Source: Candidatus Methylacidiphilales bacterium
GTDB taxonomy: Bacteria; Verrucomicrobiota; Verrucomicrobiia; Methylacidiphilales; CAZTYG01
NCBI GenBank assembly: GCA_033875315.1
Contig: JANRJG010000007.1
Span: 1-52,270 of the forward strand
Direction of reading: 5' to 3'
DNA: 52,270 nucleotides
The notes beneath the pieces are model-generated. The model saw nothing but the letters and a program-made list of their open reading frames with translations. It did not search any database and was not told the origin of the DNA. The translations under genes were made by a program, and so were the position numbers. Shown piece after piece: positions 18,191 to 48,397 of the stretch; within the stretch, counting starts at the first letter, position 1; every line of letters begins with the position of its first letter.

Positions 18191-18363
18191 GCTGGGTCGG
18201 CGATCATACAGACGGTGTCTAAGGTCTGATATTCATTGAAAGCGATTCGGGCTGGGCTTTTAGTGCCTGTCTTCTGGAAATCCAGCGACGGCCCCGTCGG
18301 CACGCACTTGGAAGCACGGATAATCTCATGCAGGAAATGGGAGGGGATGGGGTCGGGTTTCAT
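18187..18363 (-). CDS. 58-aa protein sharing a C-terminal motif with the methylase
   Basis: A small gene bounded by two four-base overlaps: its ATG overlaps the GIY-YIG stop (ATGA at 18360-18363) and its TGA overlaps the next start. It starts MKPDPIPSHFLHEIIRAS and ends with YQTLDTVCMIADPA. The last 20 residues match the end of the 1301-aa methylase (LQTLDTVRIIEGKA, preceded by RIA in both). The matching DNA is also recognisable, including GACGGTGTC on the plus strand at both sites. It may be a remnant of a duplicated methylase end or a docking peptide; both overlaps argue that it is translated. Confidence 0.62.
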   Translation of the reverse strand: MKPDPIPSHFLHEIIRASKCVPTGPSLDFQKTGTKSPARIAFNEYQTLDTVCMIADPA

Positions 18364-18950: not shown

Positions 18951-18959
18951 AATTCTGAC

Positions 18960-20564: not shown

Positions 20565-20576
20565 GCCGAGCTCCTC

Positions 20577-25591: not shown

Positions 25592-25644
25592 GGGGGGGGA
25601 AGAAGTTTTAAGTCTAAAGAATTAAGGTTTATGTTGGGCTAATT

Positions 25645-26541
25645 TCAGAGGGGGTCGTCTTCAGGGAATTCGATGCCGACTTCGGCGAGTTTCAGGGCGG
25701 CCCAACTGCCCCTGCGGGCCAGGGAGATGTAGGGATCGATCACCGCCAATTCGCCGGTTTCTTCCATGCGCACCACGTTCTCATCGTGGAGGTCGTGGGA
25801 CAAGACTCCGGTGTGGGGTTCGTAGTAGGCGAAGTAGCCATCATCGATGGTGTCGCCGTATTTGAGTTGAACCGGGGCAAAGCCGATTGCCGCCATCAAG
25901 TCGTTGATTTCTTCCTTGGTGACGGGTGGTTTTTCCATGTCGATGCGGACATGGGGTTGGGAAAGGACCGGGGCCAGGTCCTTGGATTTAGGATGGATGG
26001 AAAAACCTTCAAGGCGGTAGGCGGTTTCCGGGAAGAGTAGGTTGTGCAGGCGCATGCGGACGAGGTATTCGCCCAGCAGGCTGTCATTGACCCCATGGTA
26101 GAGGCGCTTGAACCAACGGTTGGTGGTTTCGTCAAAGTAAACGTGGTGTTCGGCGCCCCCCAGTTGTTCCTGGGCAGACCAGCGTGCGGTGAAGTCATCA
26201 TGGTCCCAGATAAAACCCTGAGACTCCGCCCATATACGGAGGGCTTTACGTCCGGCCCGGTCCACCGGGCGGAGGCGGCTCAATGAGACAAGAGATTCCG
26301 GGAGCTTTGGGATTTCAGAAAACGGTAGCCCTTGAGCGCCTGAGCGGTAGTGGTGGTCCGCTGTGTTGAAATTGAGGCCACCGTGGCTTTCTTGGAGATC
26401 CGTGGGTGATTCGAGGCCAGCACGAAGGAAAGCTTCGATGATTTTTTCGACGGGGTGGCCTGCATAACGTCCCTTTAGCCTAAGTTCAAGGGCCTGACGG
26501 GTCAAGTTCGGCCCTTGGGGTGCGTCAATACCCTCATTCAT
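25645..26541 (-). CDS. Protein-kinase-fold protein (polyvalent-kinase-like)
   Basis: A 298-residue protein. Its last part has HDLHDENVVRMEETGELAVI followed by DPYISLARRG, a pattern equal to H-x-D-x(4)-N and the metal-binding D of kinase folds. Similar HDLHxxNV...IDP modules are known as polyvalent protein kinase domains in phage and plasmid proteins. The N-terminal half has HVYFDETTNRWFKRLYHG, fitting an N-lobe with its Lys. The start at 26541 is preceded by GGAATAAGGGT; an upstream in-frame ATG at 26643 is less likely. It may be a regulator or antitoxin-like partner within the operon. Confidence 0.65.
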   Translation of the reverse strand: MNEGIDAPQGPNLTRQALELRLKGRYAGHPVEKIIEAFLRAGLESPTDLQESHGGLNFNTADHHYRSGAQGLPFSEIPKLPESLVSLSRLRPVDRAGRKALRIWAESQGFIWDHDDFTARWSAQEQLGGAEHHVYFDETTNRWFKRLYHGVNDSLLGEYLVRMRLHNLLFPETAYRLEGFSIHPKSKDLAPVLSQPHVRIDMEKPPVTKEEINDLMAAIGFAPVQLKYGDTIDDGYFAYYEPHTGVLSHDLHDENVVRMEETGELAVIDPYISLARRGSWAALKLAEVGIEFPEDDPL

Positions 26542-26569
26542 ACCCTTATTCCGAGTTACTACCCTTATT
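26529..26569. promoter_or_regulatory. Three tandem AATAAGGGTA repeats at the kinase-like gene start
   Basis: On the minus strand, AATAAGGGTA occurs at 26560-26569 and 26541-26550, and the variant AATGAGGGTA at 26529-26538. The repeats overlap the kinase-like start codon, spaced 19 and 12 bases apart. They could be operator repeats, a structured translation-control site, or a local expansion. Nothing else in the window has this repeat. Confidence 0.45.
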
Positions 26570-26673
26570 CCCCCGGTAGGTCCAGCGGGCACCGAGGTCT
26601 TTTCCCTGACATAAATGCCAAATGCAGCCCATGGGCAGGGCAAGACGAAGCAGGCGTTGATTGCGGAAGGATT

Positions 26674-29600: not shown

Positions 29601-30024
29601 CGAGTATGGCCTGAGCCTCATTCCCTTTTTCAGGGAGCACATGGTACATCTTTCCGTGCAGGAATCCGGATTGGACTACGGAACGGATTTCGACCTGCTG
29701 TCGAATCCAATCCGCGCAGGCGCGGGCTTGGGGGCGTTGCTGCAGGGCATTGCCGATGCTCAGTCCGTTTTCGGTCAATCGGAAGTGCTTGGAATCGGCC
29801 TTGTCCGCGTCGACCAAGGACACGAAGGAGGGTTCACCAAAGAGAAAACGGAGCTTGCCGGCCTGCTCGAGCACATCGCGCAGGGCATAGTAGGCGTGAA
29901 CAGTGAAATACGCGGAGACGAAGGAAAGTCGTGAGCCGGGATGGATGGCCTGCCGTAGAAAGTCTGCGGCAGATCCCCGCGTCTGGTTGTCGCGGAGGTT
30001 GGAGTGGTTCGGGGGCGTGGACAT
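26674..30024 (-). CDS. PLD-SNF2 family helicase/translocase, 1116 aa
   Basis: A fusion of an N-terminal PLD nuclease-like domain and a full SNF2 helicase. In the PLD part, FLHGKMYHVLPEKG is near residue 125 and AILGSSNFTVPGLG follows (HxK then GSSN). In the helicase, motif I is LADSVGLGKT (about 275), motif II VIDESHNF (about 361), motif III LLSATPVNN, motif V IATDCISEGQNLQ and motif VI QRFGRIDRIGSRH (about 845). Such PLD-SNF2 proteins drive ATP-dependent translocation in restriction-like systems. It is the first gene of the operon, starting 433 bases from the tRNA-Gly. Confidence 0.9.
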   Translation of the reverse strand: MSTPPNHSNLRDNQTRGSAADFLRQAIHPGSRLSFVSAYFTVHAYYALRDVLEQAGKLRFLFGEPSFVSLVDADKADSKHFRLTENGLSIGNALQQRPQARACADWIRQQVEIRSVVQSGFLHGKMYHVLPEKGNEAQAILGSSNFTVPGLGLSPTRNNTELNIILDSTYDRKDLLAWFDALWNDSAQVADVKDEVLKHLERLYGNQSPQFIYYLTLYHVFRRFLDENTDADLQLDKTNLFDSQIWQKLFSFQKDGVRGAIRRLRDYRGCILADSVGLGKTFEALAVIKYYQDRGSSILVLCPKKLWNNWNCWLAHGSADNILAKDRFNYHILAHTDLSFTKGQRGPIDLASLPSNYDLIVIDESHNFRNNAVGTETPDGRPRRTRYERLMQDIIQKGIRSHVLLLSATPVNNYLADLRNQISFIAGGDVARRERSANAAADRAFEKNLEIPSIFETTRKAQAEFTRWAKLPADQRSSKELLLKLGGDLFTLLDALSIARSRRQIERHYKAEMEHLGGFPHREKPHSEYPEIDTLGRFPTFQQLDAEISKLNLALYHPSAHLRKDLPAETHAAYERKIGNFNQEGRERILIAMMKVNFLKRLESSIDSFRLTLQRTLDKITKLETKLAAFEEHRDAHPEIDFDVVEPEVDDVDDGETDPEAFKIGGRHRIHLGHIDIPKWRKALNEDRTQLQYLCDEAKPIKPARDQKLQTVKTLLTAHFTNPDLNKEGEPIRKVILFTAFADTARYLHGELAAWAKDTFGVETALVAGTETRTSTGLNDFESILRNFSPRSKSRAQGAGPEIDLLIATDCISEGQNLQDCNFLINYDIHWNPVRIIQRFGRIDRIGSRHHRVRLVNFWPTKDLNAYLKVKERVESRMALVDLTASAEDNLLNTEQVDELISADLNYRNKQLKRLQEEVFDLEDLNDEGVTLADFSLDDFRLDLLDYLKANEDALQRAESGLYAVVPVDSSLPKCHPGVIFCFRHCGKGGKAEDSEKINPLHPYFLVYVLESGDIQYSFAAPKAILQLFRELAAGQTSAHDQLCELFDTRTKNGTDMGLYSDLAKKAVAGITRTFQKRAATSLLSSRGAVLPTASETPGADGDDLELVTWLVIQNP

Positions 30025-30383: not shown

Positions 30384-30464
30384 GGTTGTTTTACCTTTAG
30401 GCCTGCGGCGATCCGTCTTCGCTAGTAGCTACGACGCGATCAAAAAAATAGAAAAATGCGGCGA
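30359..30464. repeat. Direct repeat copy B, overlapping the tRNA-Gly 3' end
   Basis: The second copy of the 105-bp repeat. Its last eight bases (30457-30464) are the 3' end of tRNA-Gly, and copy A ends with the same TGCGGCGA. A direct repeat including a tRNA 3' end is what integrase-mediated insertion leaves as attachment sites; tandem duplication is the alternative. Confidence 0.6.
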
Positions 30465-30527
30465 GAGGGAATCGAACCCTCGCTTCTAGCTTGGAAGGCT
30501 AGAGTCCTACCATTAAACGACCGCCGC
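30457..30527 (-). tRNA. tRNA-Gly (anticodon TCC)
   Basis: The reverse complement gives a full 71-nt cloverleaf: 7-bp acceptor stem beginning GCGGCGG, D-arm with TTTAATGGTAGGAC, anticodon loop CTTCCAA, and T-arm with GGTTCGATTCC. The discriminator base is A and CCA is not encoded. It lies 14 bases from tRNA-Arg in the same direction. Confidence 0.95.
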
Positions 30528-30541
30528 GAAAACTTGGCCTG

Positions 30542-30615
30542 CGCACCCGAAAGGACTCGAACCTTTAACCTTCTGATCCGTAGTCAGATGCTCTATCCAA
30601 TTGAGCTACGGGTGC
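30542..30615 (-). tRNA. tRNA-Arg (anticodon ACG)
   Basis: The reverse complement forms a 74-nt cloverleaf: acceptor GCACCCG/CGGGTGC, D-arm GCTCAATTGGATAGAGC, anticodon stem TCTGA/TCAGA with loop CTACGGA, and T-arm GGTTCGAGTCC. The wobble A of ACG is normally edited to inosine by TadA. CCA is not encoded. Confidence 0.95.
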
Positions 30616-35489: not shown

Positions 35490-35561
35490 TGTATGCGGAC
35501 CTGATAAGTGAACTCAAGTCGGACGCATAAATGAACTAAACTTGGTCAGATTAGTGATAAT
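35490..35561 (+). promoter_or_regulatory. Candidate transposon left end with transposase-binding repeats
   Basis: Starts TGTATGCGGAC, as Tn7/Mu-class ends start TGT. Two clear direct repeats follow, GATAAGTGAACT (35503-35514) and CATAAATGAACT (35526-35537), 23 bases apart. A weaker third copy ATTAGTGATAAT lies at 35550-35561. Regularly spaced 20-24-base sites at a TGT terminus are the hallmark of TnsB/TniA-bound ends. The matching right end was not found in the window, so the boundary is an inference. Confidence 0.5.
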
Positions 35562-35591: not shown

Positions 35592-36560
35592 CTAGTCAGT
35601 TTCCATTTTTACTGCGTCGGGGTTGGATTTATTGATGGTAAGTCTGGCATAAACCGCACCAGTATCCGGGTGTCTTAGCACTTTTGTATTCGCTGAAATT
35701 ACGGGCTCACAACCCCACGGGTTCCATGCCGATATCCCCTTTTGGGCCGCACAGTCCAGATATTGTTGGTCCATAGTCAGAACAATGGGTTTGATGCCTT
35801 TGGGTAGTTTCGTGGCGTAAGCGCACAACACATAGGCGTCTGCACCCTTCCTGTTTCGGGAACTGTTAAAGGCAGCCAGCTTATAAGCTGAGAACGGCGG
35901 AGGCACGATATCCACCATTGCTTGCAGTGCCGAATTCAAATCGTCCAATCGCCGCGACTGACATTGTTTAAGATCTGCGATTGACCTGAATAACTGATCG
36001 TAATCCGGTGTTAGAAGCTTAATTTCTCCACACGCGATAGCCCTTCGCAAAAGGGTGCGGCATCCATCTGAAGTGGAAACCGGCTTTGTCAGCAGGGCAT
36101 ACAACAATATTTTGGATTCTACCAGAAACACATAACTTTGACTTTTTCTGGGTATATACTGCGTCTGCGCCGTTATGGGAGCATGATCCTTTCCTTCCAA
36201 ATTCAGTTCTGATCCAATTCCAAACCATTCGGCGTACCCTATTCGTGCTGGACGAGTAGCACAAAAACTCAACGCAGCACTGATACACTTGGCGCCAGGC
36301 ACCCCGAGCGTTTTTACAAGTGTATCCAACTGCGAACAGAAGTCCGGATCCGTGCGCATGTTGATGGCTTGGGCGCCCCCCTGCTTGGGAATATGAGCTG
36401 CTATAACACCCAACCTGCCCTGAGGCGTGGCAGGGATTGATGCGAGGAATAGGTTTGTCTTTTCCACGCAGGTCTTGATCAAACGGCTATTTGTTAAGTT
36501 TTCCCCCAGGGCCTTTCGCGCAAGGGGCAAAGCTGTCTTATGAAGCCTGTATGTAGTCAT
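35592..36560 (-). CDS. PIN-like-domain protein near transposon end
   Basis: A 322-residue protein starting MTTYRLHKTALPLARKALG. Its middle and C terminus resemble a PIN nuclease fold: YVFLVESKILLYALLTKPV (normally V-D-T-N-xLLYAL; here E-S-K), a central ADAYVLCAYATKLP and a late LTMDQQYLDCAAQKGI (T-x-D motif). The first catalytic Asp is replaced by Glu, so activity is uncertain. GC is lower than in the flanking chromosome. It is divergent from the transposase operon, with about 30 bases between, and lies just inside the proposed left end. A regulatory or cargo role is possible. Confidence 0.55.
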   Translation of the reverse strand: MTTYRLHKTALPLARKALGENLTNSRLIKTCVEKTNLFLASIPATPQGRLGVIAAHIPKQGGAQAINMRTDPDFCSQLDTLVKTLGVPGAKCISAALSFCATRPARIGYAEWFGIGSELNLEGKDHAPITAQTQYIPRKSQSYVFLVESKILLYALLTKPVSTSDGCRTLLRRAIACGEIKLLTPDYDQLFRSIADLKQCQSRRLDDLNSALQAMVDIVPPPFSAYKLAAFNSSRNRKGADAYVLCAYATKLPKGIKPIVLTMDQQYLDCAAQKGISAWNPWGCEPVISANTKVLRHPDTGAVYARLTINKSNPDAVKMETD

Positions 36561-36592
36561 CTGAGGGCATAAATAAGCCAACGTAAGCCATT

Positions 36593-37770
36593 TTGGAAGA
36601 ATTTTACAGGACAGGTCCCGAGAGCCTTTTACCCTGCGTGAAACGAGATACATCTCAACCCGAAGACCTCGCCCAGAAATTCAAGGCCGCCTGCGCCAGC
36701 GCCAAGGCGCGGCTGCACTACGGCATTGCCCAGATTCACGAGCAATTGCAGCAGCTTTGCCCTGGCGAGCCTATTACAACGGAAGCGTTGTTTCGAAACT
36801 GCCTGGCAATCCTTTCTGACAGAGTCTCCTTTAGCAAAGTCTATCGCGTGCAGAAACGCATCGAGGTTATTGCCAAATCTGGGCGCACCCCGCTGATCAC
36901 GGATTTTATCGAAAAAAGGGGCACCTATGACCGTGGCGGTAAAAGAATCCCGGACGAGACTTTTTTGAAAGCATGGCTTATTGCGGAAACCATGCGTCGG
37001 CGAAAAAACGGAACCATGAGAACGGTTGCAGAAAAGATCCTCAGGGGCCTGTTGAAGCCTGGTCAACGTATGGTGTCTGCGAGGTCGGTAAGACGAAGAA
37101 TACGGAAAATACTCATGGACCCTAAATACGCACAATTGCTGCAGAACAAGATCGAAAAGGAATTACCCAAATTGCCCGGTAATAACATGATCCCGGGGGA
37201 ACACTGGGCCACGGACACCTACGCTTTAAACATCAAAGCGTTGGATTATCGAGGAGGCCAGGGCGAGCTGAAGGTCACGGAAATAGTAGACATAGGCAGC
37301 CTCTGTGTACTTTCGGCGGTCGTCACTGTCGGCGAACCCAATGTGCAGGCTGTTGTGCTTGCCCTACTTATGGCCATGGAGCCTTTACCCTTGTTTGAAT
37401 ACCGCTTGATTCCCAAATCCCTCCGAACTGATAGGGGTTCCGTTTTTACTTCAAGGGAATTCCAGGCTCGACTAGCCGCGATGGGTATTATGCATTCCTG
37501 ACGCCGGCCCATTGTCCCCGTGCCAACTCTGCCTCAGAGAAAAGCCATAAAAGGACTCTGGGACAGTTGCACTTTGCGCATGACCCATTAAAGGAAAGCC
37601 GCGACCAACGTCAGTCCAGCCTCAATGAAGTCCTTGGCGATAAACCGATGCACACCCAGCTTATCCTCGAATCATTGGAGGCGACAATTCTTCAACTAAA
37701 TTTGAGACCAACAAGCAAATTCGGGGGGGTGTCTCCGGCACGGGTTCTTTTGAATCAAATCAAATCATGA
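36593..37770 (+). pseudogene. DDE transposase (Mu/TnsB/TniA type), frameshifted, module 1
   Basis: The first frame encodes 302 residues from TTG 36593 (or GTG 36638). It has helical DNA-binding regions and an rve core with HWATDTYAL (D208) and SLRTDRGSVF (D280), then stops at TGA 37499. The -1 frame continues TPAHCPRANSASEKSHKRTL, carrying the catalytic Glu, to TGA 37768-37770. Joining the frames by a -1 step gives exactly the D-35-E spacing of the second transposase, so one base was lost or a frameshift is needed. No classical slippery heptamer is seen, so a pseudogene is the default call. It heads the plus-strand transposition operon. Confidence 0.72.
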
Positions 37771-38237
37771 AAAATTCCGCCAATTTCTTGGGTGTGCTCC
37801 AGAATTCTTTAATCTCGATGCAAGTGCCCGTCAAGGCCCACCGAATCGGCTTGCTTGGAAATGCCGTGCAATATGTGGTCCCTAAGCATATTGCCGGCGA
37901 TGTGACGATAAACCAACCCGCATGGTGGCAGTCCGTTCAGCATTTCGGCCCCATCCTTGAGGCTTCTGTTGGACAGCATGTCTTTCTAATCGTTAACATC
38001 AGATCTCAGGACGATCCCGAACTGAAAAAAGTCACGCCTGACTATTTGGAAGACTGGAAATACTGGCGCAAGCGGCAGGGGCTTGTCGTTTTTGCCCATC
38101 GCCGGGACCTGCCCGTAACCCACGAGGGTGGCTTCACAAGGCCTGGCAGGAGTGAGCCGGCGGCTAAACCAGCGGAAGTCTCCAAGACCAAGAAGCGGGC
38201 ACCCAAAACACGCAAACTCAAAAAGGCAAAGGTTTAA
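37767..38237 (+). CDS. 156-aa protein coupled to the module 1 transposase
   Basis: It begins by a four-base ATGA overlap with the transposase's second-frame stop, so translation is coupled to that frame. Residues 20-115 look like mixed beta strands (VPVKAHRIGLLGNAVQYVVP, GQHVFLIVNIRS), and the tail is Lys/Ala/Pro-rich and basic. It may be the detached C-terminal beta-barrel and tail of the transposase, which in TnsB/MuA contacts the ATPase. This is inferred from position; no family is recognised. Confidence 0.6.
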   Translation: MKNSANFLGVLQNSLISMQVPVKAHRIGLLGNAVQYVVPKHIAGDVTINQPAWWQSVQHFGPILEASVGQHVFLIVNIRSQDDPELKKVTPDYLEDWKYWRKRQGLVVFAHRRDLPVTHEGGFTRPGRSEPAAKPAEVSKTKKRAPKTRKLKKAKV

Positions 38238-38241
38238 CGCC

Positions 38242-39000
38242 ATGGACATCATAATCACCAGTTTAGTCGAGGACACCCTAAGGTATGCCCGGAGCATCTA
38301 TGGCTCAGGGTGTATGGGTCAGGTGGTGGGTGCTATCGATGCGGGCAAGACCACGGCCATGCTCTATGCGCAGAAAAAGCTGGAGACCCAACACAAGGAT
38401 CCCGTCATCTGGGTGCGGGGTTGCTCGGATACTCCACGTATATATATGCTCCACGAGCTGTTCCGAGCCATTTCAGGGCGGGATTCCGACAGAATGTCCA
38501 TGAATCCGTCGGATATGTTGAGGAGAATTGTTTCTGCCGGTCAAAAGTGCGGGTGCAAGTTGATCATAGTCGATTTTCACAGTCTGGTCATGGAGCCAAC
38601 CGTATTCGAGTTGCTTGAGGTGATGGATTGTTTTCGTCAAGCCCAGGTTCCCGTGGGAATGCTCGTAGCATCCATGCAAATTCGCCAGGGTATGATGCCC
38701 TTTGCGAACAGCTACGCGGGGAACACGCTCCTGCGAGCGCCATTGTTTTCGTCTCAATACTCAACACGGCGCGAAATTGCCAGCGTGCTTCGTGCCGTTA
38801 GTGGGAATTTTTCGGGTTTCTGTGCCCGTGTGGACCATCAGGAGGCAGATGCCCTGCAGGTACTCCAGAAGCTCATTGAAGCAACCGAGGGTGCCATGGG
38901 TCGGGTCATTCGACTCGCCGGGCCTGCCGCAGAAGGAAAAGTAGCACTCTCCAATCGGGAGGTGTTGGCTCTGGTTACTAAGGGCGCCGAACCGTTTTGA
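38242..39000 (+). CDS. TnsC/TniB-like AAA ATPase, module 1
   Basis: A 252-residue ATPase starting MDIIITSLVEDTLRYARSIY. The P-loop is GAIDAGKTT (residues 30-38), and a Walker B-like LIIVDFHSL has Asp111 but His where Glu is usual. A sensor-like region VPVGMLVASMQIRQG follows. TnsC/TniB proteins form filaments on target DNA and recruit the transposase. It is four bases downstream of the 156-aa gene. The weak Walker B may mean altered ATP hydrolysis. Confidence 0.68.
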   Translation: MDIIITSLVEDTLRYARSIYGSGCMGQVVGAIDAGKTTAMLYAQKKLETQHKDPVIWVRGCSDTPRIYMLHELFRAISGRDSDRMSMNPSDMLRRIVSAGQKCGCKLIIVDFHSLVMEPTVFELLEVMDCFRQAQVPVGMLVASMQIRQGMMPFANSYAGNTLLRAPLFSSQYSTRREIASVLRAVSGNFSGFCARVDHQEADALQVLQKLIEATEGAMGRVIRLAGPAAEGKVALSNREVLALVTKGAEPF

Positions 39001-39030
39001 GGCCTGCTTGCGGGAGTTATCTCCCCAAGC

Positions 39031-40140
39031 ATGATTCCCTACCTCACGTTCCCCATTAACCAGAAAGATTGGAATTCCTCTAATCCAACCCCATTGGTGG
39101 ACACCCTCAATGCCGCCATGTTTGGGACCTATGGCCTCTCGTTATGCCGCTTCCTCGATGTGGTGTTGCCGACTTCTGCGCCCGGACGGGCGCATGTCGC
39201 AGCCAGCGCACAGGCGGTGCAATACGCCAAGCGGTTATTCGAACTGTGTCCCCATGCCCTGCTGGGGCTGAGGCCGGATGACAAGCAGACCATGTTGCTG
39301 GTTTGGGCTTCCTTGCCGGGTGCTGTGATTGCTCATCGGAACTTGTCTGACAAAAGTTGGTTCTTTAAGCCGGTCACCCCTTCTTTGGCGTTGCCAGTTC
39401 TGCGCGAACGTGAGGACCAGGCCGAGGCTATGGCCCACGCACTGGCTTTCGGACGCCCCCGGGCGGGGCTTTTTGATAGGAAGCCGCTGACCCGAGACTG
39501 GCTGGGTAAACCGGAGCGTGTGTGGAGAGGGTTCCCCACTGGGGTTTCCTTTTTCGACCAAGATGGTGATCTGGGGAAACTGGTGACAATCGAAAGGCTG
39601 TCCGTTTTTGGAGGGGATGCCTGCGCGGATCGGATTGTTTACGCCTGCATCAACAGAAACAAACAGGGTTGTCAGTTTAATGAGGGATTGGAGCGCCTGC
39701 TCAGAACTTTTGCCCAAAACCGAATGGTCTGTCCCACCCTGCCGGAGATTGTGCCCTATTGGATCGGCAGTATCCTGCGGACTGTCCATCCGCTGCATTT
39801 CTTCTCCCGGGCCGGGGTGGCCGCAGAGGCCCGCCGCCTGTTCAGCGATTGTCCCGAGGCCCTTCTGTCCTTCGACCTCAAGTCTCCTGCCGTGGCAACT
39901 CTCTTCCTGGCCGCATGCGGGAATGGATTGAAGATCACCGAAGGCGATGGGGTGCGGCATGTAAGGGGTGCGCGACTCAACCCAAAACAGGCGGACCGCA
40001 CTATCCGTGCGGCCCTTGCATCCGCCCAGATCATGGGATGGAGGGGCAAGCGACTGCAGGCTCGCCTGGCAATGATCTCACCTCTCGTGGGTCGGTGGAT
40101 GCGGGATGGAGTTGTGTGGCCTACCGAGGTGGGAACGTAA
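39031..40140 (+). CDS. 369-aa transposition-operon protein of unknown family
   Basis: A largely helical 369-residue protein lying between the module 1 ATPase and the module 2 transposase. That is the position of tniQ/tnsD target selectors in related elements. It lacks the Cys-pair zinc motif and conserved N terminus of TniQ, so I do not call it TniQ. A basic C terminus (RLNPKQADRTIRAALASAQI, GWRGKRLQARLAM) could bind DNA. A target-selection role is a guess from position. Confidence 0.6.
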   Translation: MIPYLTFPINQKDWNSSNPTPLVDTLNAAMFGTYGLSLCRFLDVVLPTSAPGRAHVAASAQAVQYAKRLFELCPHALLGLRPDDKQTMLLVWASLPGAVIAHRNLSDKSWFFKPVTPSLALPVLREREDQAEAMAHALAFGRPRAGLFDRKPLTRDWLGKPERVWRGFPTGVSFFDQDGDLGKLVTIERLSVFGGDACADRIVYACINRNKQGCQFNEGLERLLRTFAQNRMVCPTLPEIVPYWIGSILRTVHPLHFFSRAGVAAEARRLFSDCPEALLSFDLKSPAVATLFLAACGNGLKITEGDGVRHVRGARLNPKQADRTIRAALASAQIMGWRGKRLQARLAMISPLVGRWMRDGVVWPTEVGT

Positions 40141-40174
40141 CCGATCTAGTGGCACCTATCTTTGGGTCAACAAA

Positions 40175-41650
40175 ATGAAAAACTGCCTGATTCCTGCCGA
40201 TGAAGTCGAACATGTCGCCCGCCGTCGATCGCTGGTTTCAGCGTATCGCCAATCGGGCTTGAAATTGGTCCCGTTTGCAAAAAGTCGGGGTGTTTCCGCT
40301 GCTACCTTATGGCGTTGGAATCGCCGGGCCGGCAGTTTGAATGACCCAGAGTTTTTTGTTGATAAACGCAAGAAGGGGCGTGAGGGCTCAAAGTCCCGGA
40401 TGGATCGACGCGCTCTTGCCTGGGCTCTCTGCCTCCTCGAGGCCCATCCCGAAGCCAAGCTCACCGCTATTCATGCTCGGGTTTGCGAAAAGTGCGTCCA
40501 GGAAAACTGGGGTTCTCCGGGCTACAGGCAGCTTTGTCGTGCCTTGTCCAACCTGCCCCAGGACATGCGCGTCATGCTGCGGGAAGGGGAGAGAAGGGCC
40601 TTCGAACAGGCCAGTCTCGTCGCACGCATTGAACAGGGTTACCCGAACGAGTTGTGGCAAATGGACTTCACTGAAATCCCTTTCTGGATTCGTGATATGG
40701 CCACGGGCGAATTGTACAAGCCCTTTATGACGGCCGCTATCGACTCCTTCTCCCGGGCCTGCGTGGGGGTCCGTATCCATCGTCAAGCGCCCGATACGAA
40801 CGAGAGTCTCATTTGCCTACATACCTGCATGTCTGCCAAAGGTGACGAAAGGTTGCCCTTCTTCGGTGTTCCCAAACGCCTGCGCTCTGACCATGGCTCG
40901 GTTTATGAATCAACCGACTTCCTTGACACCCTCCTTCGCCTGGATGTCATCTGGGATCCCGCTCCCAAATCCTGCCCCTCGGCCAATGGTAAAATTGAGC
41001 GTTGGTTCCAGACTTTCACCAATGGTCTGATCACCACACTCCAGGGCCACGCCAACCAGTTCCGGGGCCTGTCCCGGGCCAAAGAATCGGCCCTGCCTTC
41101 GACCCACTTTGAGAAGTTGGTTTGGGATTACATCCGCCGCTACAACCACACACGCCATTCCAGCATCGGATGCACCCCCTTCGAACGCTGGGTCAATCAC
41201 CTTGGCGACGCCAAAGGGTTGAACATCGACGCCTCGGAAATTTCCCTGGCCATCCGGGTCCGCAAGGAAATGACCGTCGAGCGGGACGGCATCGCCCTGT
41301 GGGGCCGTCACTTCTCCTCGGAAGCCTTGGTGGGTCTGGTGGGTGAAAAAGTCATTGTTCGTCTGCCCGTGGAAGGCACCGCCGAGAACATCGAGTGCTA
41401 CACCCTTTCTGGCACACTCATCGGCCTGCTCACCCCGGTCGAGGGCGATAGTGACCTCGCCGCCCGCATTAATTCCGAACGCCTGTCCCGCACCCATGCG
41501 ATCCACGATCTGGCGCGTGTTCTCCGCGAACAATCCCCGGGCCTGCGCCCGGCATCCCGAATTCCCACCGCACCCGCTGACGACAATGGTCCCTCGGTAT
41601 CTGAGGGTCGCATCCAACCCAGTGAACCCCTTCCCCAGGAGGAATCATGA
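40175..41650 (+). CDS. DDE transposase (Mu/TniA/TnsB type), module 2
   Basis: An intact 491-residue transposase. Residues 15-50 contain a helix-turn-helix (LVPFAKSRGVSAATLWRWNR). The rve core has WQMDFTEIPF (D164), RSDHGSVYES (D239) and SANGKIERWFQTF (E275), i.e. D-x35-E. A C-terminal beta-barrel (about residues 370-440) and a Pro-rich tail follow. This cut-and-paste or replicative enzyme binds transposon ends. Its stop overlaps the ATPase start by four bases. I start at ATG 40175. Confidence 0.85.
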   Translation: MKNCLIPADEVEHVARRRSLVSAYRQSGLKLVPFAKSRGVSAATLWRWNRRAGSLNDPEFFVDKRKKGREGSKSRMDRRALAWALCLLEAHPEAKLTAIHARVCEKCVQENWGSPGYRQLCRALSNLPQDMRVMLREGERRAFEQASLVARIEQGYPNELWQMDFTEIPFWIRDMATGELYKPFMTAAIDSFSRACVGVRIHRQAPDTNESLICLHTCMSAKGDERLPFFGVPKRLRSDHGSVYESTDFLDTLLRLDVIWDPAPKSCPSANGKIERWFQTFTNGLITTLQGHANQFRGLSRAKESALPSTHFEKLVWDYIRRYNHTRHSSIGCTPFERWVNHLGDAKGLNIDASEISLAIRVRKEMTVERDGIALWGRHFSSEALVGLVGEKVIVRLPVEGTAENIECYTLSGTLIGLLTPVEGDSDLAARINSERLSRTHAIHDLARVLREQSPGLRPASRIPTAPADDNGPSVSEGRIQPSEPLPQEES

Positions 41651-42426
41651 ACCCGAATTTGAAGCTGCCCTCCATTGCCACCGAATCCATCGAACGCGCT
41701 ACCCAACTGCTCTCGGACTGCGTTACCACCGGGTCCCTCGGTGTCCTCACCGGACCCAACGGTTCCGGAAAAACCGAGGCCCTCAAGGCCTTGGTCGGTC
41801 GCTACCCTAAAATTGGGACCAAGGGAACGGCCCTGTATTTCCGGTGCTGCCTGCTCAAGAGCCACACCCGTGGACTCAAGGATTTGGCAGAGGCCATGGG
41901 GCGCAAGCTCTTCTCCGGATCCAATTCGACGGGATCAGTCCAGTTCGCCATCCGCACCTGCATCCATGAAATGGAACGCCAAGACATCACCGCCCTCTTT
42001 CTGGACGATGCAGACCTCTGGTCCCACGAAGTCCTGGAAAATGTGGTCGCTTTGCGCGACAAGGCCCACGAGAAGGGCTGGCCTCTGGTCATCATCCTTG
42101 CCGGCGCATCCAATCCGGATAACTGGCTTGGGCGTGTGGCCTCGGCTCGCAGCCGTACCCTCAAAGTCGAGGTCTTTCATGACCTTGATCCCGGTGAGAT
42201 GCTGGGAGTCCTTCGCTCCTGGAACCCGGTCTTTGAGGTATTCGCCCAGGCCGTGGCCGAAGGCGAAAAAAAGGCCGAAAAGTGCGCCCGCACGATCCAT
42301 TCCCACACCAAGGGGAACATGCGCCGGTTGTCCTACTTTGCCCTGCTCTACGCCGCCCACGCCGGGGAGGCTCCCGTTTCCCCGGAAACCCTGGAAAAGG
42401 TCCTGCCCCACCTCAGCGCCGCGTGA
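41647..42426 (+). CDS. TnsC/TniB-like AAA ATPase, module 2
   Basis: A 259-residue AAA ATPase with Walker A GPNGSGKT (residues 36-43), Walker B TALFLDDADLW (Asp120), a sensor-type VIILAGASNPDNW and a C-terminal helical lid. The layout is that of transposition regulators (TnsC, TniB, MuB, IstB-like). It is coupled on both sides: ATGA with the transposase and GTGA with the next gene. It presumably selects target DNA and activates the module 2 transposase. Confidence 0.82.
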   Translation: MNPNLKLPSIATESIERATQLLSDCVTTGSLGVLTGPNGSGKTEALKALVGRYPKIGTKGTALYFRCCLLKSHTRGLKDLAEAMGRKLFSGSNSTGSVQFAIRTCIHEMERQDITALFLDDADLWSHEVLENVVALRDKAHEKGWPLVIILAGASNPDNWLGRVASARSRTLKVEVFHDLDPGEMLGVLRSWNPVFEVFAQAVAEGEKKAEKCARTIHSHTKGNMRRLSYFALLYAAHAGEAPVSPETLEKVLPHLSAA

Positions 42427-43214
42427 AACCCCGTAGCAAATTTGCACCCCGCACGGTTCGTACGAGCGAAAAGGCCAAGCTTCTGGCTGCCGTGGGTGAC
42501 CTGGTGGCCAAGATGGGGCGGCCGGTGTGCTCAGACGACCTGCGGAGCCACTTGAACACCATGGAGGACCAAGAGCGGGTTCCCTTCTTTGCCCAATGTT
42601 GGGGGCAGGTCCTACTCAAGGCTGCCCGGCCAAGACCGGAGCCCTTCCCCTACCTCCGGTGTCTGGGAAAGATCGGAAACAGGGCCTATTACGCCCTGGA
42701 GGACACCCAGGAGCTGCGTTTGGCCCTGGGGAGGCACAAGGACACCCTCCGGGCCAAAGTAGGGGCCTCCTGGCGGCTGGCTGAAGCCATCACCAACCTG
42801 ATTGGAACCCCCTATGAGGCCCAGGCCCGCAATGCGGCAGCCGGGTTTGTGCAGGAATTTGGTCCCCTCTCCACCCTCGATGAACGCCTAGCAGGGCAGG
42901 TAGAGGAAGCCAGGAAGTGGGTGGTGGGGCCGTTTGTGGCCCGGGAGCCCTCGGATTGGATCACGCGGAAAGAGGCCCTGGCTTTGCTAAAGGAGGCTGC
43001 CACTCGTTGCCTGGGCCCGGATGAAGCCTCCCAAATCAAATATCAGAAAATCCTCACGGCTTGGCAATGGCCCCAGTCGGAATTGTTTATGCGGAAAGGG
43101 CTTCGTTATTCCCGGAGTCAAATCGCTTGCGTGGCCAAAACCAAATGGGGCCACGGCGACGATGGCGGGTTGGCTCTCGGTGCCGCAGTTGCCATCTCTA
43201 GGTATTCGTATTGA
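42423..43214 (+). CDS. 263-aa third protein of the module 2 operon
   Basis: It starts at a GTG (42423) overlapping the ATPase stop as GTGA. The N-terminal 45 residues are basic (KPRSKFAPRTVRTSEKAK), and the next part (LLAAVGDLVAKMGRPVCSDD through ALEDTQ) looks like a winged-helix domain. A further helical region (residues 100-240) follows. No family is recognised. Being in the operon, it is a candidate accessory or target-selecting factor; the alternative is a regulator of transposition. Confidence 0.65.
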   Translation: MKPRSKFAPRTVRTSEKAKLLAAVGDLVAKMGRPVCSDDLRSHLNTMEDQERVPFFAQCWGQVLLKAARPRPEPFPYLRCLGKIGNRAYYALEDTQELRLALGRHKDTLRAKVGASWRLAEAITNLIGTPYEAQARNAAAGFVQEFGPLSTLDERLAGQVEEARKWVVGPFVAREPSDWITRKEALALLKEAATRCLGPDEASQIKYQKILTAWQWPQSELFMRKGLRYSRSQIACVAKTKWGHGDDGGLALGAAVAISRYSY

Positions 43215-43270: not shown

Positions 43271-43363
43271 ATGAACGATGACGTCTTTGCCTATATTTTG
43301 ATCGTGTCGATCATCTGCCTTATTATTGCGGTTCTGTTGGCGCACATTGGTGTGCTGTCCTAG
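43271..43363 (+). CDS. 30-aa single-TM small protein
   Basis: An ATG eight bases after a good AAAGGA ribosome-binding site encodes MNDDVFAYILIVSIICLIIA plus ten more residues, one long hydrophobic helix. It is 56 bases past the module 2 operon. Its end overlaps the convergent minus-strand gene by about 40 bases, which lowers confidence. A membrane peptide or toxin-like product is possible. Confidence 0.42.
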   Translation: MNDDVFAYILIVSIICLIIAVLLAHIGVLS

Positions 43364-43957
43364 TAGTCAAGCTTGCGTCGCCCTGGCTGAGCAGATATTG
43401 CTTGGTCAGGGCTGTCAGCGCTAAACAGGTCTTTTGGGTTGATATGCCCGCATTCTTGTCTGATTCGGCGGCTTTCAGTGCAGGCCATAGATCTGAAGCT
43501 TCCAGTAGCCCCTGGATTCGCGTTTCGAGGTTTTGATCGCTGCTATCGAATCTCTCCAGAAGTGCCGATGCCAAGGCTATTCTGTAGGCACCTGTCCGCC
43601 GCTCGCTTCTCAATCGGGCCATGACCAAACCGCAGACAACGTAAACGGCTACTGTAACTGCCAGGATAACAAAAACAACAGTGTCCAATGTTGGAAAGGT
43701 TTTTGTTTGGGCTGCCTTTTCATCAGTGACGCGCAGACTCCATTGACGGTCAAGTTTTTTGCCTGAGATTTCAGTAGGGGTTGCTACAGCAATCCAAGGA
43801 CCTGAAGTCGAAGTCCTGTATGTTGGCAGAACCGTAGTCAAACTTGCGCAAACTGCCAAAAACAATGCTATATAGGTTATAATATTTTCGGAAGATCGAT
43901 GACATTCCAATGGACGGCACGCGATTTCACAAAACTTTCTAGTGTATTCCTCTATAT
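43323..43957 (-). pseudogene. Membrane protein gene, 5' end removed by IS3 insertion
   Basis: The minus-strand frame runs open from the IS3 terminus with no methionine before two transmembrane segments (IITYIALFLAVCASLTTVL and VVFVILAVTVAVYVVCGLVM). A charged cytoplasmic C terminus with MARLRSERRTGAYRIAL follows. The frame enters the IS, so the true start was lost when the IS inserted. About 200 residues remain. No family is recognised; the two-TM plus soluble-tail layout resembles membrane sensors or effectors. Confidence 0.5.
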
Positions 43958-44398
43958 TGACCTGACCCCTAAAAAACAGACATTTTGAAAAGAGAGTTCT
44001 GGTCCTGTAGAAGGAACAGAACGAAATGAAGAGAAGCAAATTCAGCGAAGAACAGGTGGTGGGCATCCTACGGGAGGGAGCCGGAATGAGCGTCAAGGCG
44101 GTCTGCGCCAAACACAACATCAGCGAGCCGACCTACTACAAGTGGAAGAAGCAGTATGGGGGCCTGGAAGTGTCCGACGTGCGGACGATGCGTGCCATGG
44201 CCGAAGAGAACGCCCGGCTCAAACGAATCATCGCGGACTTGGTCGTGCAGAACGACATCTTGAAGGTGGTGAACGCAAAAAAATGGTGAGCCCTTCGACC
44301 AAGCGAAGGGCCGTGCGCATGGTGGTGGAAGAAGGCTGGGGACGGAAGGCCCCGGCCTGCCGGGCGCTTGGACTGTGCCGGGCCAGCTTCTATGTGGA
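43958..44398 (+). mobile_element. IS3-family insertion sequence, 3' part missing
   Basis: The element begins TGACCTGACCCCTAAAAAAC, an IS3-type terminus. OrfA is complete, and OrfB is in the expected next frame but stops resembling a transposase after about 38 codons (near 44395). No right terminus is seen. The element therefore lost its right part. Confidence 0.7.
44026..44289 (+). CDS. IS3-family transposase OrfA
   Basis: An 87-residue protein with the Tnp_1 helix-turn-helix: KRSKFSEEQVVGILREG then SVKAVCAKHNISEPTYYKWK, followed by a leucine-zipper-like helix ENARLKRIIADLVVQNDIL. OrfA binds the IS ends and normally fuses to OrfB by a -1 frameshift on an A-run; GCAAAAAAATGG at its 3' end fits such a site. 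Without a complete OrfB the element cannot move by itself. Confidence 0.85.
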   Translation: MKRSKFSEEQVVGILREGAGMSVKAVCAKHNISEPTYYKWKKQYGGLEVSDVRTMRAMAEENARLKRIIADLVVQNDILKVVNAKKW

Positions 44399-44465
44399 AA
44401 GCCAGGTCTGTGTGGAGATGTTCACGGCCGGTCAGCGTGGTGCTGGGGTCATGATCGATGAGTAG
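44283..44465 (+). pseudogene. IS3 OrfB fragment
   Basis: The -1 frame after the A-run starts MVSPSTKRRAVRMVVEEGWG and continues ACRALGLCRASFY, the N terminus of IS3 OrfB. It then reads unrelated sequence to a TAG at about 44465. The integrase core with its DDE residues is missing. Confidence 0.7.
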
Positions 44466-44504
44466 ACGACAGGACCTAGTGCGTAACAATTTGTCGTCTT
44501 TTTT
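44465..44504 (+). terminator. Possible plus-strand terminator
   Basis: GACGACA (44465-44471) pairs with TGTCGTC (44492-44498), followed by six T residues. The 20-base loop is long. It lies between the IS fragment and the end of the Fic gene. Confidence 0.45.
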
Positions 44505-44517
44505 GTCCTCGTCAGTC

Positions 44518-45222
44518 TTATTTCTGCTCCTGTTGGCGCAGGATTTCTGCACGCTTCTTTTGCCATTCTGTTTCGAAATTCTCGTCAAGCTTTGGGGTCA
44601 CTTTCCGGCTCAATTCCTTCTCGGGCCAGTTCGGAACTTCCAACCCTCCCCTTCGCAGGATCATACTTGCCAAGGGGTAGGGGTTTCCTTCATATGCTGC
44701 CTGAAGAAACGGCTTCAGGCTCTCGCTCATCAGAGGGGATCTCTCCTGTGGTCCATAAATGGCCTGGATTTGTGCTTCCAGAAGCACCGCTGATGTTCTT
44801 GTATTCCCATCCCGGAAAGGGTGAATGCTTCGAATAGACCCATGCAGTGTGGCGAGTGCAAGCGCGTATCCAGGCGGGTCACACTGACTGATGTCTACTT
44901 CGTATTTTTGGCAACACTCTTCCAAGGCCCCTTCGATTTTGGATGCATCAGCGCCGACCCTACCCTTGTCGAAAGTAACAGTTTCATCCCTGCTTCTGAA
45001 TTCCCCGGCCCACGTATGAATTTTGTAAAAGATTGCATAATGAATGGATTTGATCAGTGCCGGAATGACGGCCAGGGATTGGGACGTCACAAGCGTCTTA
45101 AGCGCTCTGGTCATCCCCTCTTGGTAAGCCTGTTCGTAGGCCTCAATATCCTTAATATCCGGCTTCAGGCCCAACCCCTGAAGTTTGTTCCATGGCGTGC
45201 CCGTGGACTCTTGCTTTCCCAT
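44518..45222 (-). CDS. Fic/Doc family protein
   Basis: A 234-residue Fic protein. The motif HPFRDGNTRTS (near residue 136) matches HPF-x-[DE]-GN-x-R, with the catalytic His and the phosphate-binding loop. Fic enzymes transfer AMP or related groups to proteins. A leading FYKIHTWAGEFRSRD is the usual preceding helix and flap. The C terminus is charged. No adjacent antitoxin with a clear inhibitory (S/T)xxxE(G/N) motif was found. It is monocistronic on the minus strand and fits defence or toxin cargo. Confidence 0.88.
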   Translation of the reverse strand: MGKQESTGTPWNKLQGLGLKPDIKDIEAYEQAYQEGMTRALKTLVTSQSLAVIPALIKSIHYAIFYKIHTWAGEFRSRDETVTFDKGRVGADASKIEGALEECCQKYEVDISQCDPPGYALALATLHGSIRSIHPFRDGNTRTSAVLLEAQIQAIYGPQERSPLMSESLKPFLQAAYEGNPYPLASMILRRGGLEVPNWPEKELSRKVTPKLDENFETEWQKKRAEILRQQEQK

Positions 45223-45245
45223 ACGGAGAACACTATACTCAGGTA

Positions 45246-45536
45246 ATGGAAGATGGAAAACACTCCATACAGGATTATCTCACGCGAACTGCCGTGACTG
45301 TTCAGGCGCTCTCTGCTCAGGGAGGCTTCAAAACCTCTTTCGCCTCGGCCCTCAAGGCAGTAACTGCTGTTGAGACCGATTGCTTACTGGGGGCAGTACA
45401 TCCATCGATTGCACCTCTCATGAATGCGCTGAAACAGGCGCAAGAGCGCGAAAAACGCTTGGGTCTGCGTCCCTGTTTATTGTCCTCAAATCTTTCGTCA
45501 ACGATGCAGGCGAACACTTCCTTCCCCAGGATTTAG
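45246..45536 (+). CDS. Small hypothetical protein divergent from Fic
   Basis: A 96-residue frame starting MEDGKHSIQDYLTRTAVTVQ, 23 bases from the divergent Fic start. It is helical and polar with LMNALKQAQEREKRLG, and has no recognised domain. It could be an antitoxin-like partner of Fic or a chance frame; the ribosome-binding site is weak. Confidence 0.4.
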   Translation: MEDGKHSIQDYLTRTAVTVQALSAQGGFKTSFASALKAVTAVETDCLLGAVHPSIAPLMNALKQAQEREKRLGLRPCLLSSNLSSTMQANTSFPRI

Positions 45537-45602
45537 GGGATGTTATACCTCGGCCACCTACGGTGGCCCCCTAAGAAGACCCCGGTCAAGTAAGTGCCAT
45601 CG

Positions 45603-46367
45603 TCAGGTCCTATTGATTAGTCCATGCGTCTCGAAGTCGTAGGGCTTGCCTCCGGCCAGAAGCAGGGCGCAGTAACCCTGTCGGGCCCCAGGCACTGACA
45701 GCAGCAATTCCTTCAAGTGTGGTGGCCCAGCCAGGTGCAGCGGTGTATTGCCCTCGCGGTCAACGGCAAATGGACTGGCACCCGAATCCAGGAGGCAGGT
45801 CACCCCCTCGGTGTTCGCGCGATGTGCGGCAATGTGCAGCGCTGTTCTCCCATACGAATCCGGCAGGTTCAAGTCGGCGCCGCATCTAGCAAAGACCTCT
45901 ACCATGGCCGTAAGTTGCACCCCAAAATGAAAGACCTCATGCAGGGGTGCGGCACCCGTGTAGTTGCGAAGTCCCAGGTTGGCTCCACTCTCGGCCAGAG
46001 CCGCCAGGCATCCCACAGCCCCAAGGCGTGCGGCCCAGTGGGCCGGTGTGTCGCCTGCCATGTCTTTTGCATTGAGGTTTGCGCCTGCTGCCACCAGCAC
46101 TTTGAGGCATTCGGTCTTGTGGCACGAGGCGGCCTCATGAAGTGCTGTCTGGCGCTGTTGGTTGCGTCCGTTCACATCCGCACCCTGTTCCAGCAGCCAA
46201 CGAACCGACTCCACGTAACCAAGGTACGTCACCCACATCAGTGGAGTGTTCCCATATTCATTCTTCTCCTCAATCGGGTGTCCCTGGGCCAGCAGCCTCT
46301 GGGCTTCATCGAACTCGCGGTTGGCAACGGCCAGGCAAAAGTCAGAGACTACCGTTTCGTTGTTCAT
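45603..46367 (-). CDS. Ankyrin-repeat protein
   Basis: A 254-residue protein with about six ankyrin repeats from residue 38 onwards (GNTPLMWVTYLGYVESVRWL, QTALHEAASCHKTECLKVLV, GDTPAHWAARLG, AAPLHEVFHFG, RTALHIAAHRAN, GNTPLHLAGPPHL). The repeats form a binding surface for another protein. It is the last gene of the four-gene operon, and its ATG overlaps the TM gene's stop by four bases. A sensor or immunity-type partner is inferred. Confidence 0.85.
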   Translation of the reverse strand: MNNETVVSDFCLAVANREFDEAQRLLAQGHPIEEKNEYGNTPLMWVTYLGYVESVRWLLEQGADVNGRNQQRQTALHEAASCHKTECLKVLVAAGANLNAKDMAGDTPAHWAARLGAVGCLAALAESGANLGLRNYTGAAPLHEVFHFGVQLTAMVEVFARCGADLNLPDSYGRTALHIAAHRANTEGVTCLLDSGASPFAVDREGNTPLHLAGPPHLKELLLSVPGARQGYCALLLAGGKPYDFETHGLINRT

Positions 46368-46531: not shown

Positions 46532-46799
46532 GCAAGCCCTCCATCTCCTTCGGCTCGGGCACCTCGTGAGCCACGGGCAGCCACGCCTGCATGCCTGGGG
46601 CCAGAATACGCACCTTCTCCCATGGCCAATCAGCGACAATCTCATCGAAGCTTGACCTCTCCATCCCCCGCACGTTCTCTAGGTCCACCAGCACGCTCTG
46701 CCCCATATCCAAGTTGCGCCGAATTTTCGCGCGGATTGTGCGGATGACCTTGGGGGACTGGAACGCGCAGTTCCAGCGGTTCAGACACAACCTCACCAT
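46521..46799 (-). CDS. 92-aa STAS-like protein
   Basis: A 92-residue protein with DMGQSVLVDLENVRGMERSS followed by FDEIVADWPWEKVRILAPGM, which looks like the small STAS-like (DUF4325-type) fold: beta strand, conserved aspartate, helix. It overlaps the ATPase stop by seven bases. In known cases such modules occur with histidine-kinase-like ATPases in defence loci. Assignment is by pattern only. Confidence 0.5.
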   Translation of the reverse strand: MVRLCLNRWNCAFQSPKVIRTIRAKIRRNLDMGQSVLVDLENVRGMERSSFDEIVADWPWEKVRILAPGMQAWLPVAHEVPEPKEMEGLRED

Positions 46800-48397
46800 T
46801 CGAACTCCTCTGGTGCTTCAGACTTCGGATTCCAAAGCGCCCACTCCACGGCAAAGTCGCGCAGGGACGCGATTGCGTGCAACATGCGTTCACCCAGCCC
46901 TGCTTCGGCATATTCGCTCTGGCATAGGGCGATCTCTACCTCGAGTTGGATCAAGAGGCCGGCAATCAGCCCAAAGTTGCTCTCGTGTCCGAAAAGATCG
47001 TCCTGGCTGACCTTTGGATTCCAATACTCCTCCAGAGACCACGCGATGCAGCGGAGCAGGCAAACCAGCCCCCCATCGGGAGCTGCCTGGGTCGGCTTGC
47101 CGTAAAGCGCATTCTCACCGTTCTCCAGGAGAATTTCTTTCACCCTCGCATGCCAAAGCAGGCTGCGTAGGCTGCTGCATGCTTTCAGGGCGGCACGACG
47201 CACCAGGGTTGGGTTTTGCGTGGCCACAATCGCAGGCGCCCACCCAGCAGGCTTGGCAGGCGTGTTTGGGCCCGCACCGTGCACGGGTGGTGTGGCGGGT
47301 TTCGGCGGTTGAGCTTCTTGTGGGTGCGGAACAGGCGAAGGGGTCGGAGCGTTGGCGGCGGCCAGTAATTGCGCAGATAGACTGTCAGGCTTTTGGGAGG
47401 GCGACTTCGATCCGGACGCACCTTTGATCCACGGCGCGCCGTTCTTGTCGGGTGTGGCTGCCGGGGCATCCACCGCACCGGGGGTTGCGGGGGAAGGGCT
47501 TCGGGTGAGCCTGAAGGGCTTCAAAAGCGGAATGTCTTTCTCCACGGCGCTTGCGGCCAGGCCCAGACAGTAGCTTTCAAACCACCGCATGCCTTGGTCC
47601 GAAGCGCCTGCCGCTTTTGCCAGTCGCTGAATCTCCGAACCGGTGATTTTCTTTCCTTTACCCTTGAAGGCAGAGTGGATTTGGATGATCCCTCTCGCAT
47701 ACTCCTCCTCAGTCGGGGGCTCGATCATGACCACGTCAGCAGCAAACCTGGAAGCAATCTCCGGGGGCAACCCCTGACCGTTGACCTTGCGCGAATAGTG
47801 GGGGACCTCCAGCTCGACTGGATCCCCGATGGCAAAGCCGACCTGCGGCCGACTCGCTGCAGCAACCTCGTCCTTTTGCTGGGTGGCCAGTTGTTGGAAG
47901 GCACCCGCTCCGACAATGAATGTATTCGCCAAGCGGGCGATATGTTCATCCGTCCAGCCGCATCCCTTGAGACGTCCGTCACCATCCAGGAGGGCCAGCA
48001 CCTCCCCAAAAACGCCCAGTGCCCAGGACGAGCCATAGGCCGATGAGATCGGCACCGTTTTGTCGATCTCGTCCAAGTAGAGCATTTTGTGCGTTCGCGC
48101 CTCGGAACCGAGGAAGGCCGCGATGGTGGTGAGAGAGGAGGGTTGGGTGGCTGCCCCCCAGGGAACCCAGCTATTGCAAGCGATGGTGATCATCCCAAGG
48201 CCCATCTCTTCGGCAAAGCGGCGGACAACTTCAGTTTTGCCGACGCCAGTGGGGCCGACGATTAGGCTGTGGGTTCGGACTTTCACGCTCCCAATCTGGG
48301 GCATGAGGCATTTGACGGCGAAGTTTCGCTGAAGCGAATTGAGGGCGGCTGCTTGGCTGGCAGTGGAAATGCCAACCTCTTTCTGGGGGACGGACAT
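46793..48397 (-). CDS. ClpX/HslU-like AAA+ ATPase with long C-terminal extension
   Basis: A 534-residue AAA+ protein. Walker A is GPTGVGKTE (residues 48-56), Walker B MLYLDEIDK (near 108) and sensor 1 NTFIVGAGAFQQL, the ClpX/HslU sequence type. There is no zinc-binding N domain and no obvious pore loop for a protease partner. A Pro/Ala/Ser-rich linker (about residues 305-390) leads to a helical C-terminal domain. It is the first gene of the four-gene operon with the STAS-like, TM and ankyrin genes. A remodelling or sensing ATPase role is inferred. Confidence 0.82.
   Translation of the reverse strand: MSVPQKEVGISTASQAAALNSLQRNFAVKCLMPQIGSVKVRTHSLIVGPTGVGKTEVVRRFAEEMGLGMITIACNSWVPWGAATQPSSLTTIAAFLGSEARTHKMLYLDEIDKTVPISSAYGSSWALGVFGEVLALLDGDGRLKGCGWTDEHIARLANTFIVGAGAFQQLATQQKDEVAAASRPQVGFAIGDPVELEVPHYSRKVNGQGLPPEIASRFAADVVMIEPPTEEEYARGIIQIHSAFKGKGKKITGSEIQRLAKAAGASDQGMRWFESYCLGLAASAVEKDIPLLKPFRLTRSPSPATPGAVDAPAATPDKNGAPWIKGASGSKSPSQKPDSLSAQLLAAANAPTPSPVPHPQEAQPPKPATPPVHGAGPNTPAKPAGWAPAIVATQNPTLVRRAALKACSSLRSLLWHARVKEILLENGENALYGKPTQAAPDGGLVCLLRCIAWSLEEYWNPKVSQDDLFGHESNFGLIAGLLIQLEVEIALCQSEYAEAGLGERMLHAIASLRDFAVEWALWNPKSEAPEEFEW

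Follow-up and report, generated by a model that had tools for sequence, protein, structure and literature searches.

The window analysed here, 52,270 nucleotides long, is a whole contig (G000:C7) of a genome of 3.15 Mb in 42 contigs. Its plus strand carries, at 36593-43214, a cassette of genes in the order DDE1 (broken), ATPase1, U369, DDE2, ATPase2 and U263, in which the first two genes are referred to as module 1 and DDE2 with ATPase2 as module 2. The initial annotation had placed two DDE transposases and two TnsC-like ATPases in this stretch, and profile matches located all four there, the ATPases being of TnsC/MuB-like type. The features of the cassette and its surroundings are as follows (G002, G014 and G127 are genomes with related elements, described below).

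35490..35549, plus strand: tentative left-end candidate, TGTATGCGGACC, then two similar 16-bp sites at 35504 and 35527
35592..36653, minus strand: divergent gene, 353 aa (322 aa if the start is 36560); divergent genes also in G002 and G014
36593..37501, plus strand: DDE1 first part, 302 aa, with the catalytic Asp residues (rve, 2.8e-6; phrog_310, 1e-18)
37498..37770, plus strand: DDE1 continuation in the -1 frame, carrying the catalytic Glu (joint alignment with the intact G002 DDE1; triad alignment)
37767..38237, plus strand: probable DDE1 C-terminal part (156-aa ORF), opening at an ATGA overlap (z 3.7; length; position)
38242..39000, plus strand: ATPase1, 252 aa (match to the ATPase2 profile, 3e-12; z 7.4 against G002)
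39031..40140, plus strand: U369, two-repeat protein (homologues in G002, 339 aa, and G014, 170 aa with a single repeat)
40175..41650, plus strand: DDE2, 491 aa, triad D164, D239, E275 (phrog_310, 1e-45; ShCAST TnsB, 3.5e-34)
41647..42426, plus strand: ATPase2, 259 aa, Walker A GPNGSGKT, Walker B LFLDDAD (AAA_22; ShTnsC, 7e-5)
42423..43214, plus strand: U263, N-terminal winged-helix-like domain (follows ATPase2 in 7 of 7 elements)
44026-44289: partial IS3-like orfA, probable cargo
44518-45222, minus strand: Fic protein, probable cargo
45603-46367, minus strand: ankyrin-repeat protein, probable cargo
46793..48397, minus strand: AAA protein, 534 aa, probably also part of the element (AAA / AAA_2; homologues in G014 and G127)

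Both transposases contain the RNase H-like integrase core (rve) according to Pfam, to which DDE2 adds a Mu C-terminal domain (PF09299, 2.7e-6); no Pfam match to the latter was obtained in DDE1 of G002 or G014. U369 sits between the modules in the same-strand run, where gaps are short or genes overlap. The absence of TniQ, also claimed in the initial annotation, was confirmed by Pfam, which gave no TniQ match in any cassette protein, U369 and U263 included, and found TniQ elsewhere in this genome by the same search. TnsA likewise had no match among the cassette proteins and is present in another element of the genome. These two tests place the cassette outside the Tn7 family. In contrast to the TniQ-free cassette, a conventional TnsA-TnsB-TnsC-TniQ set lies in the same genome at 7070-11906 of locus L019 (G000:C27). 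No resolvase was recognised within 36593-43214, which is probably only a part of the element. The divergent gene had no family match and no significant pairwise similarity to the divergent genes of G002 and G014; a PIN-domain identity considered for it was dropped for lack of profile or pairwise support.

The DDE1 frame in the window runs into a TGA (37499-37501) immediately ahead of the position of the catalytic Glu, and DDE1-homologous sequence (LTPAHCPRANSASEK...) continues gap-free at about 37498 in the -1 frame and runs on to 37770, where the ATGA overlap opens the 156-aa ORF. Read through, DDE1 aligned with the intact 520-aa DDE1 of G002:C77 at z 11.7. The similarity of the 156-aa ORF to the C-terminal part of the G002 protein was modest (z 3.7; equalled by 2 of 400 shuffles), and the DDE1 pieces together with this ORF sum to 548 aa, as compared with 520 aa in the intact protein. 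Because of the summed length and the C-terminal match, the 156-aa ORF is, as far as the alignments tell, most likely the C-terminal part of a frameshifted DDE1, and its interpretation as an independent factor was rejected. The three proteins of unknown family counted previously are therefore reduced to two, U369 and U263. Window DDE1 is spread over three frames, and DDE1 is unbroken in G002 and G014. The split points to a recent break or an assembly error; programmed -1 frameshifting is less likely, as no canonical slippery heptamer was seen by eye near 37490-37501. A real mutation is weakly favoured because the other long genes of the window are unbroken, and the copy in the window may be inactive. 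For ATPase1, the most likely start is the ATG at 38242 and not 38128.

To follow the cassette in other genomes, a DDE2 profile was run against 62 genomes of the order and against samples of 384 genomes from the class and 388 from the phylum. It returned seven strong elements in five genomes, one each in the window genome, G002, G014 and G085, and three in G127. Within the order all three DDE2 elements also have module 1, each in a different family; these are the three tandem elements known. In G002:C77 (L123), one strand carries DDE1, ATPase1, the 339-aa U369 homologue, DDE2, ATPase2 and the start of U263, which is cut by the contig end. This gene order is that of the window, with a divergent gene upstream of DDE1 in both, and the cassette proteins of the two elements share only 16-40% identity. 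The G014 element is rearranged, having ATPase1 and DDE1 on the opposite strand, with a divergent gene beside DDE1, followed by a 357-aa gene, the 170-aa U369-related protein, DDE2, ATPase2 and U263. ATPase1 and U369 are unbroken open frames in all three. A DDE1 profile built from these same three genomes found true DDE1 across the class (384 genomes) only in the window genome, G002 and G014, always with DDE2; the next matches were DDE2 proteins, and DDE1 is so diverged that distant DDE1 proteins could escape this profile. Viral contigs gave distant relatives of DDE2 only, and none of ATPase2. Thus the co-occurrence check called for by the initial annotation, which had held that modules found only apart would speak for chance nesting, ended with module 1 found solely with module 2, in three families of the order.

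We then compared the catalytic residues and built trees. The D-D-E triad is aligned and kept in every DDE1 and every DDE2, the Glu of window DDE1 lying beyond the frameshift. Walker A is kept in all ATPases of both types. The Walker B glutamate is absent from ATPase1 in three of three cases (IIVDFH in the window, VILDYA and VILTNC), and the Walker B of ATPase2 reads DE in six of seven proteins and DD in one, that of the window. The two modules are strongly diverged, as described earlier, and triads and Walker A are preserved at branch lengths near 2 substitutions per site. Window and G002 DDE1 grouped together (88), as did window and G002 DDE2 (100), so the DDE1-DDE2 pair most likely predates the split between these two elements. 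The DDE1 of G014, which has a long branch, was placed beside the DDE2 clade (87) and not firmly with the other two DDE1 proteins; module 1 may therefore have had more than one origin. The ATPase tree was poorly resolved.

Element ends were sought in G014 as TG...CA inverted ends with target duplications. In narrow intergenic windows there was one end-pair match, at 35972-56124 (20,153 bp), with the ends TGTAGCTAATCATAATAC and TGTAGCCGCTCATTATAT (TGTAGC...GCTACA) and a perfect 7-bp target duplication, GGGCTTA. This pair was equalled in 0 of 300 shuffles of the same regions; its location counts in the argument, because an unrestricted 50-kb scan equalled the score in 1 of 5 shuffles. A 25-bp subterminal site at 35982 and 36005 (plus strand) and at 56034 and 56090 (minus strand) provides the four top sites in the 50 kb. 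Between these ends lie both modules, U263, cargo and the AAA protein, and no second end pair was seen in G014. Ends are delimited in this one element. Because of the recurrence in three families and the single end pair in G014, we conclude that this is a real two-transposase element, in which both modules belong together and their pairing is conserved. The suggestion that two elements are nested is not upheld.

In the window, the two 16-bp sites of the left-end candidate are 13/16 alike, a pair that is not significant alone because 14 of 100 shuffles also give two such sites; in a search of the window's own genome both exact copies fell at this candidate (35490..35549). No partner beyond chance was found for it, either as TG/CA pairs with 4-8-bp duplications or by aligning the candidate to 43.2-52.3 kb together with a pattern search of the genome, and the right end may lie past the contig end at 52270. 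As to an empty site, different genes occupy the tRNA-Glu/ftsY locus in G016, and the flanks of the G014 element, once joined, had no uninterrupted match in the genus of G014. There are hints that insertion is linked to tRNA genes: a tRNA 3' end lies about 27 bp from the element in G014 and within 152 bp in G002, where by eye a TGT stands 24 bp from it. Against such a link, the tRNA is on opposite sides of the G014 and G002 elements, and the flank of the tRNA-Ser at the G014 site varies among relatives of G014. The homologous tRNA-Ser locus of G048:C1 (97244-101506) contains an integrase-like stretch, and the tRNA end is repeated there at a distance of 4 kb, an arrangement resembling an integrase-driven island.

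Homologues of the window AAA protein (46793-48397) lie inside the G014 ends and, in all three elements of G127, immediately follow U263, and this placement makes it probably an element component. Since its homologues belong to related elements, the window element probably reaches beyond 43214; the extent given by the initial annotation, 36593-43214, thus holds for the core cassette and is probably not the limit of the element. The stretch to the right of the cassette, 43323-46367, is probable cargo. To its left, a defence-type island (14113-30024, minus strand) adjoins tRNA-Gly and tRNA-Arg at 30457-30615 and encodes a 1116-aa HKD/Snf2 helicase (PADLOC C3a139, 1e-120), a 1301-aa type IIG restriction-methyltransferase-like protein, an AAA protein like LmuB/AriA and a PDC-S11-like protein.

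The internal repeat of U369 scored z 3.9 in the window and z 6.6 in the G002 homologue, the first repeats of the two proteins matched each other at z 5.0, and the single-repeat 170-aa protein of G014 resembles U369 by way of the G002 protein (z 4.7). The AlphaFold model of U369 was too poor for a structure search (mean pLDDT 46); it displays in each half helices, a beta hairpin and a helix. U369 is possibly built of two tandem winged-helix-like units, with which the weak model is compatible without being proof. U263 is conserved after ATPase2 in all seven elements, and its model is good (pLDDT 84). The first 95 residues aligned with winged helices at Z about 6, which are middling values; Foldseek gave no significant match for U263, and the modelled likeness may be just a common arrangement. 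Neither the G002 339-aa protein nor the G085 U263 had a match in plasmids.

Module 1 and U369 are missing from the four sister elements outside the order, of which G085 has one and G127 three. Giant proteins stand next to their single DDE2-ATPase2-U263 modules:

L013, 12686-16609: giant protein
L015, 8996-12907: giant protein
L016, 11351-14839, minus strand: giant protein
L017, 4695-8615, minus strand: giant protein

These proteins, 1162-1307 aa in length, adjoin DDE2, and those of them that were scanned had no Pfam or PADLOC match. Near their C-terminus they show the tyrosine-recombinase motifs R, K, HxxR, GH and Y, with Tyr in place of the first His in G085. Tyrosine-recombinase-type target selectors have been described in TnsF of Tn6022, a tyrosine-recombinase-derived protein, and in the Tsy transposon (PMC10293859), and on this precedent the giant proteins are candidate target selectors. 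They differ from TnsF and Tsy in their great length and in the absence of TniQ, with catalytic motifs kept, and the tandem cassettes have no such adjoining protein. Module 1 and U369 occupy the slot that the giant protein has in the sister elements, which suggests, by analogy, that they could do a targeting or resolution job comparable to that of the giant protein. A separate fragment in G127:C129 (L017, 15879-16238, minus strand) matches the C-terminal part of U263 (6e-11) and is perhaps the remains of another element copy.

Among known systems, Tn552 has, as here, a two-gene core (a 480-aa DDE protein and a 271-aa ATPase) with the same domain order and without TnsA or TniQ; DDE2 (491 aa) and ATPase2 (259 aa) are of corresponding size, and in a plasmid search with DDE2 it ranked among the top matches (26% identity over 87%), while ATPase2 had no plasmid match at 1e-5. 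However, Tn552 has one transposase-ATPase pair beside serine recombinase genes, as opposed to two pairs, U369 and U263. The best solved relatives are type V-K CAST and Tn5053-type elements (ShCAST TnsB for DDE2, ShTnsC for ATPase2), also without TnsA, but these use TniQ, with Cas12k in addition in CAST, and lack the second pair. MuA- and MuB-type PHROG families match both modules; phage Mu, however, has one module, and the flanking genes examined included no recognisable phage structural genes. The best analogy for two different transposase subunits is the heteromeric TnsA + TnsB of Tn7, in which TnsA is an unrelated nuclease, whereas here another DDE protein is proposed for that role. In the literature searched, DDE/AAA+ elements carry a single transposase-ATPase pair; no open-access source among the results describes two TnsB-TnsC-type pairs in one element, which is weak evidence of novelty.

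Collectively, our results are best read as a DDE/AAA+ transposon of the MuAB, TnsBC and Tn552 type with two diverged core modules forming a heteromeric transposase-regulator system, a reading to which we assign a probability of about 0.5. It takes up the proposal in the initial annotation of a heteromeric two-transposase system without TniQ, which the recurrence in three families supports. DDE1 and DDE2 would share a single heteromeric transpososome, in which DDE2 would be the principal enzyme for binding the ends and transferring strands, and DDE1 would add a second catalytic subunit serving the remaining end or strand. ATPase1 would bind ATP without hydrolysing it and co-assemble with ATPase2 on target DNA in a stable, non-cycling form, and U369 and U263 would bind DNA as accessory factors that, instead of TniQ, help to choose the target or to regulate the reaction. 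In the related IstB, a Walker B E-to-Q mutant kept its fold and oligomeric state and stabilised the transpososome (PMC11208146). The heteromeric reading is favoured because of the recurrence, the shared ends in G014, the kept triads and the loss of the Walker B glutamate in ATPase1 only. Weighing against it are the frameshift in window DDE1, the loose placement of G014 DDE1 in the tree, the small number of tandem elements (three) and the delimitation of ends in a single one of them. More tentatively, we can envisage a specific design in which two distinct catalytic DDE subunits, as separate enzymes for each end or strand, work with a mixed AAA+ collar having one non-hydrolysing subunit type, without TnsA and TniQ and possibly aimed beside tRNA genes.

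Alternatively, module 1 might do no chemistry and serve as a target selector or immunity regulator, with DDE1 binding DNA, ATPase1 as a stable platform and U369 reading the target, and with cutting and joining left to DDE2 and ATPase2. Its place in the slot of the sister tyrosine-recombinase-like protein, with TnsF as precedent (PMC10293859), the missing Walker B Glu of ATPase1 and the broken DDE1 of the window would all fit; we nevertheless think it unlikely, as a D-D-E triad kept in three very diverged DDE1 proteins argues for retained catalysis. The frameshift and the Walker B loss could also mark module 1 as the decaying remnant of an ancient duplication that no longer has a role. This is improbable given that DDE1 is unbroken in G002 and G014, that ATPase1 and U369 are open in every tandem element, and that triads and Walker A have survived at such branch lengths. 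Two functionally independent modules within one element, each with its own ends or pathway, would explain why each module has a transposase and an ATPase and why the two are so diverged, but we judge this quite improbable too: G014 showed no second end pair, the two modules form a single same-strand run with U369 in the middle and its genes closely spaced or overlapping, and the Walker B Glu is missing from ATPase1. That two unrelated elements are nested by chance, for which the divergence and the frequent clustering of mobile elements could be cited, is highly improbable and was rejected on the recurrence in three families, with the same order in two, the shared ends in one and module 1 never alone.

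If the heteromeric reading is true, paralogous cores with a naturally Walker-B-defective regulator would constitute a natural experiment on ATP hydrolysis in TnsC/MuB-type proteins, with respect to target immunity, assembly and disassembly, and the element would represent a new route to end- or strand-specific heteromers. The accessory families U369 and U263, together with the giant tyrosine-recombinase-like partners, are candidate target selectors outside TniQ.
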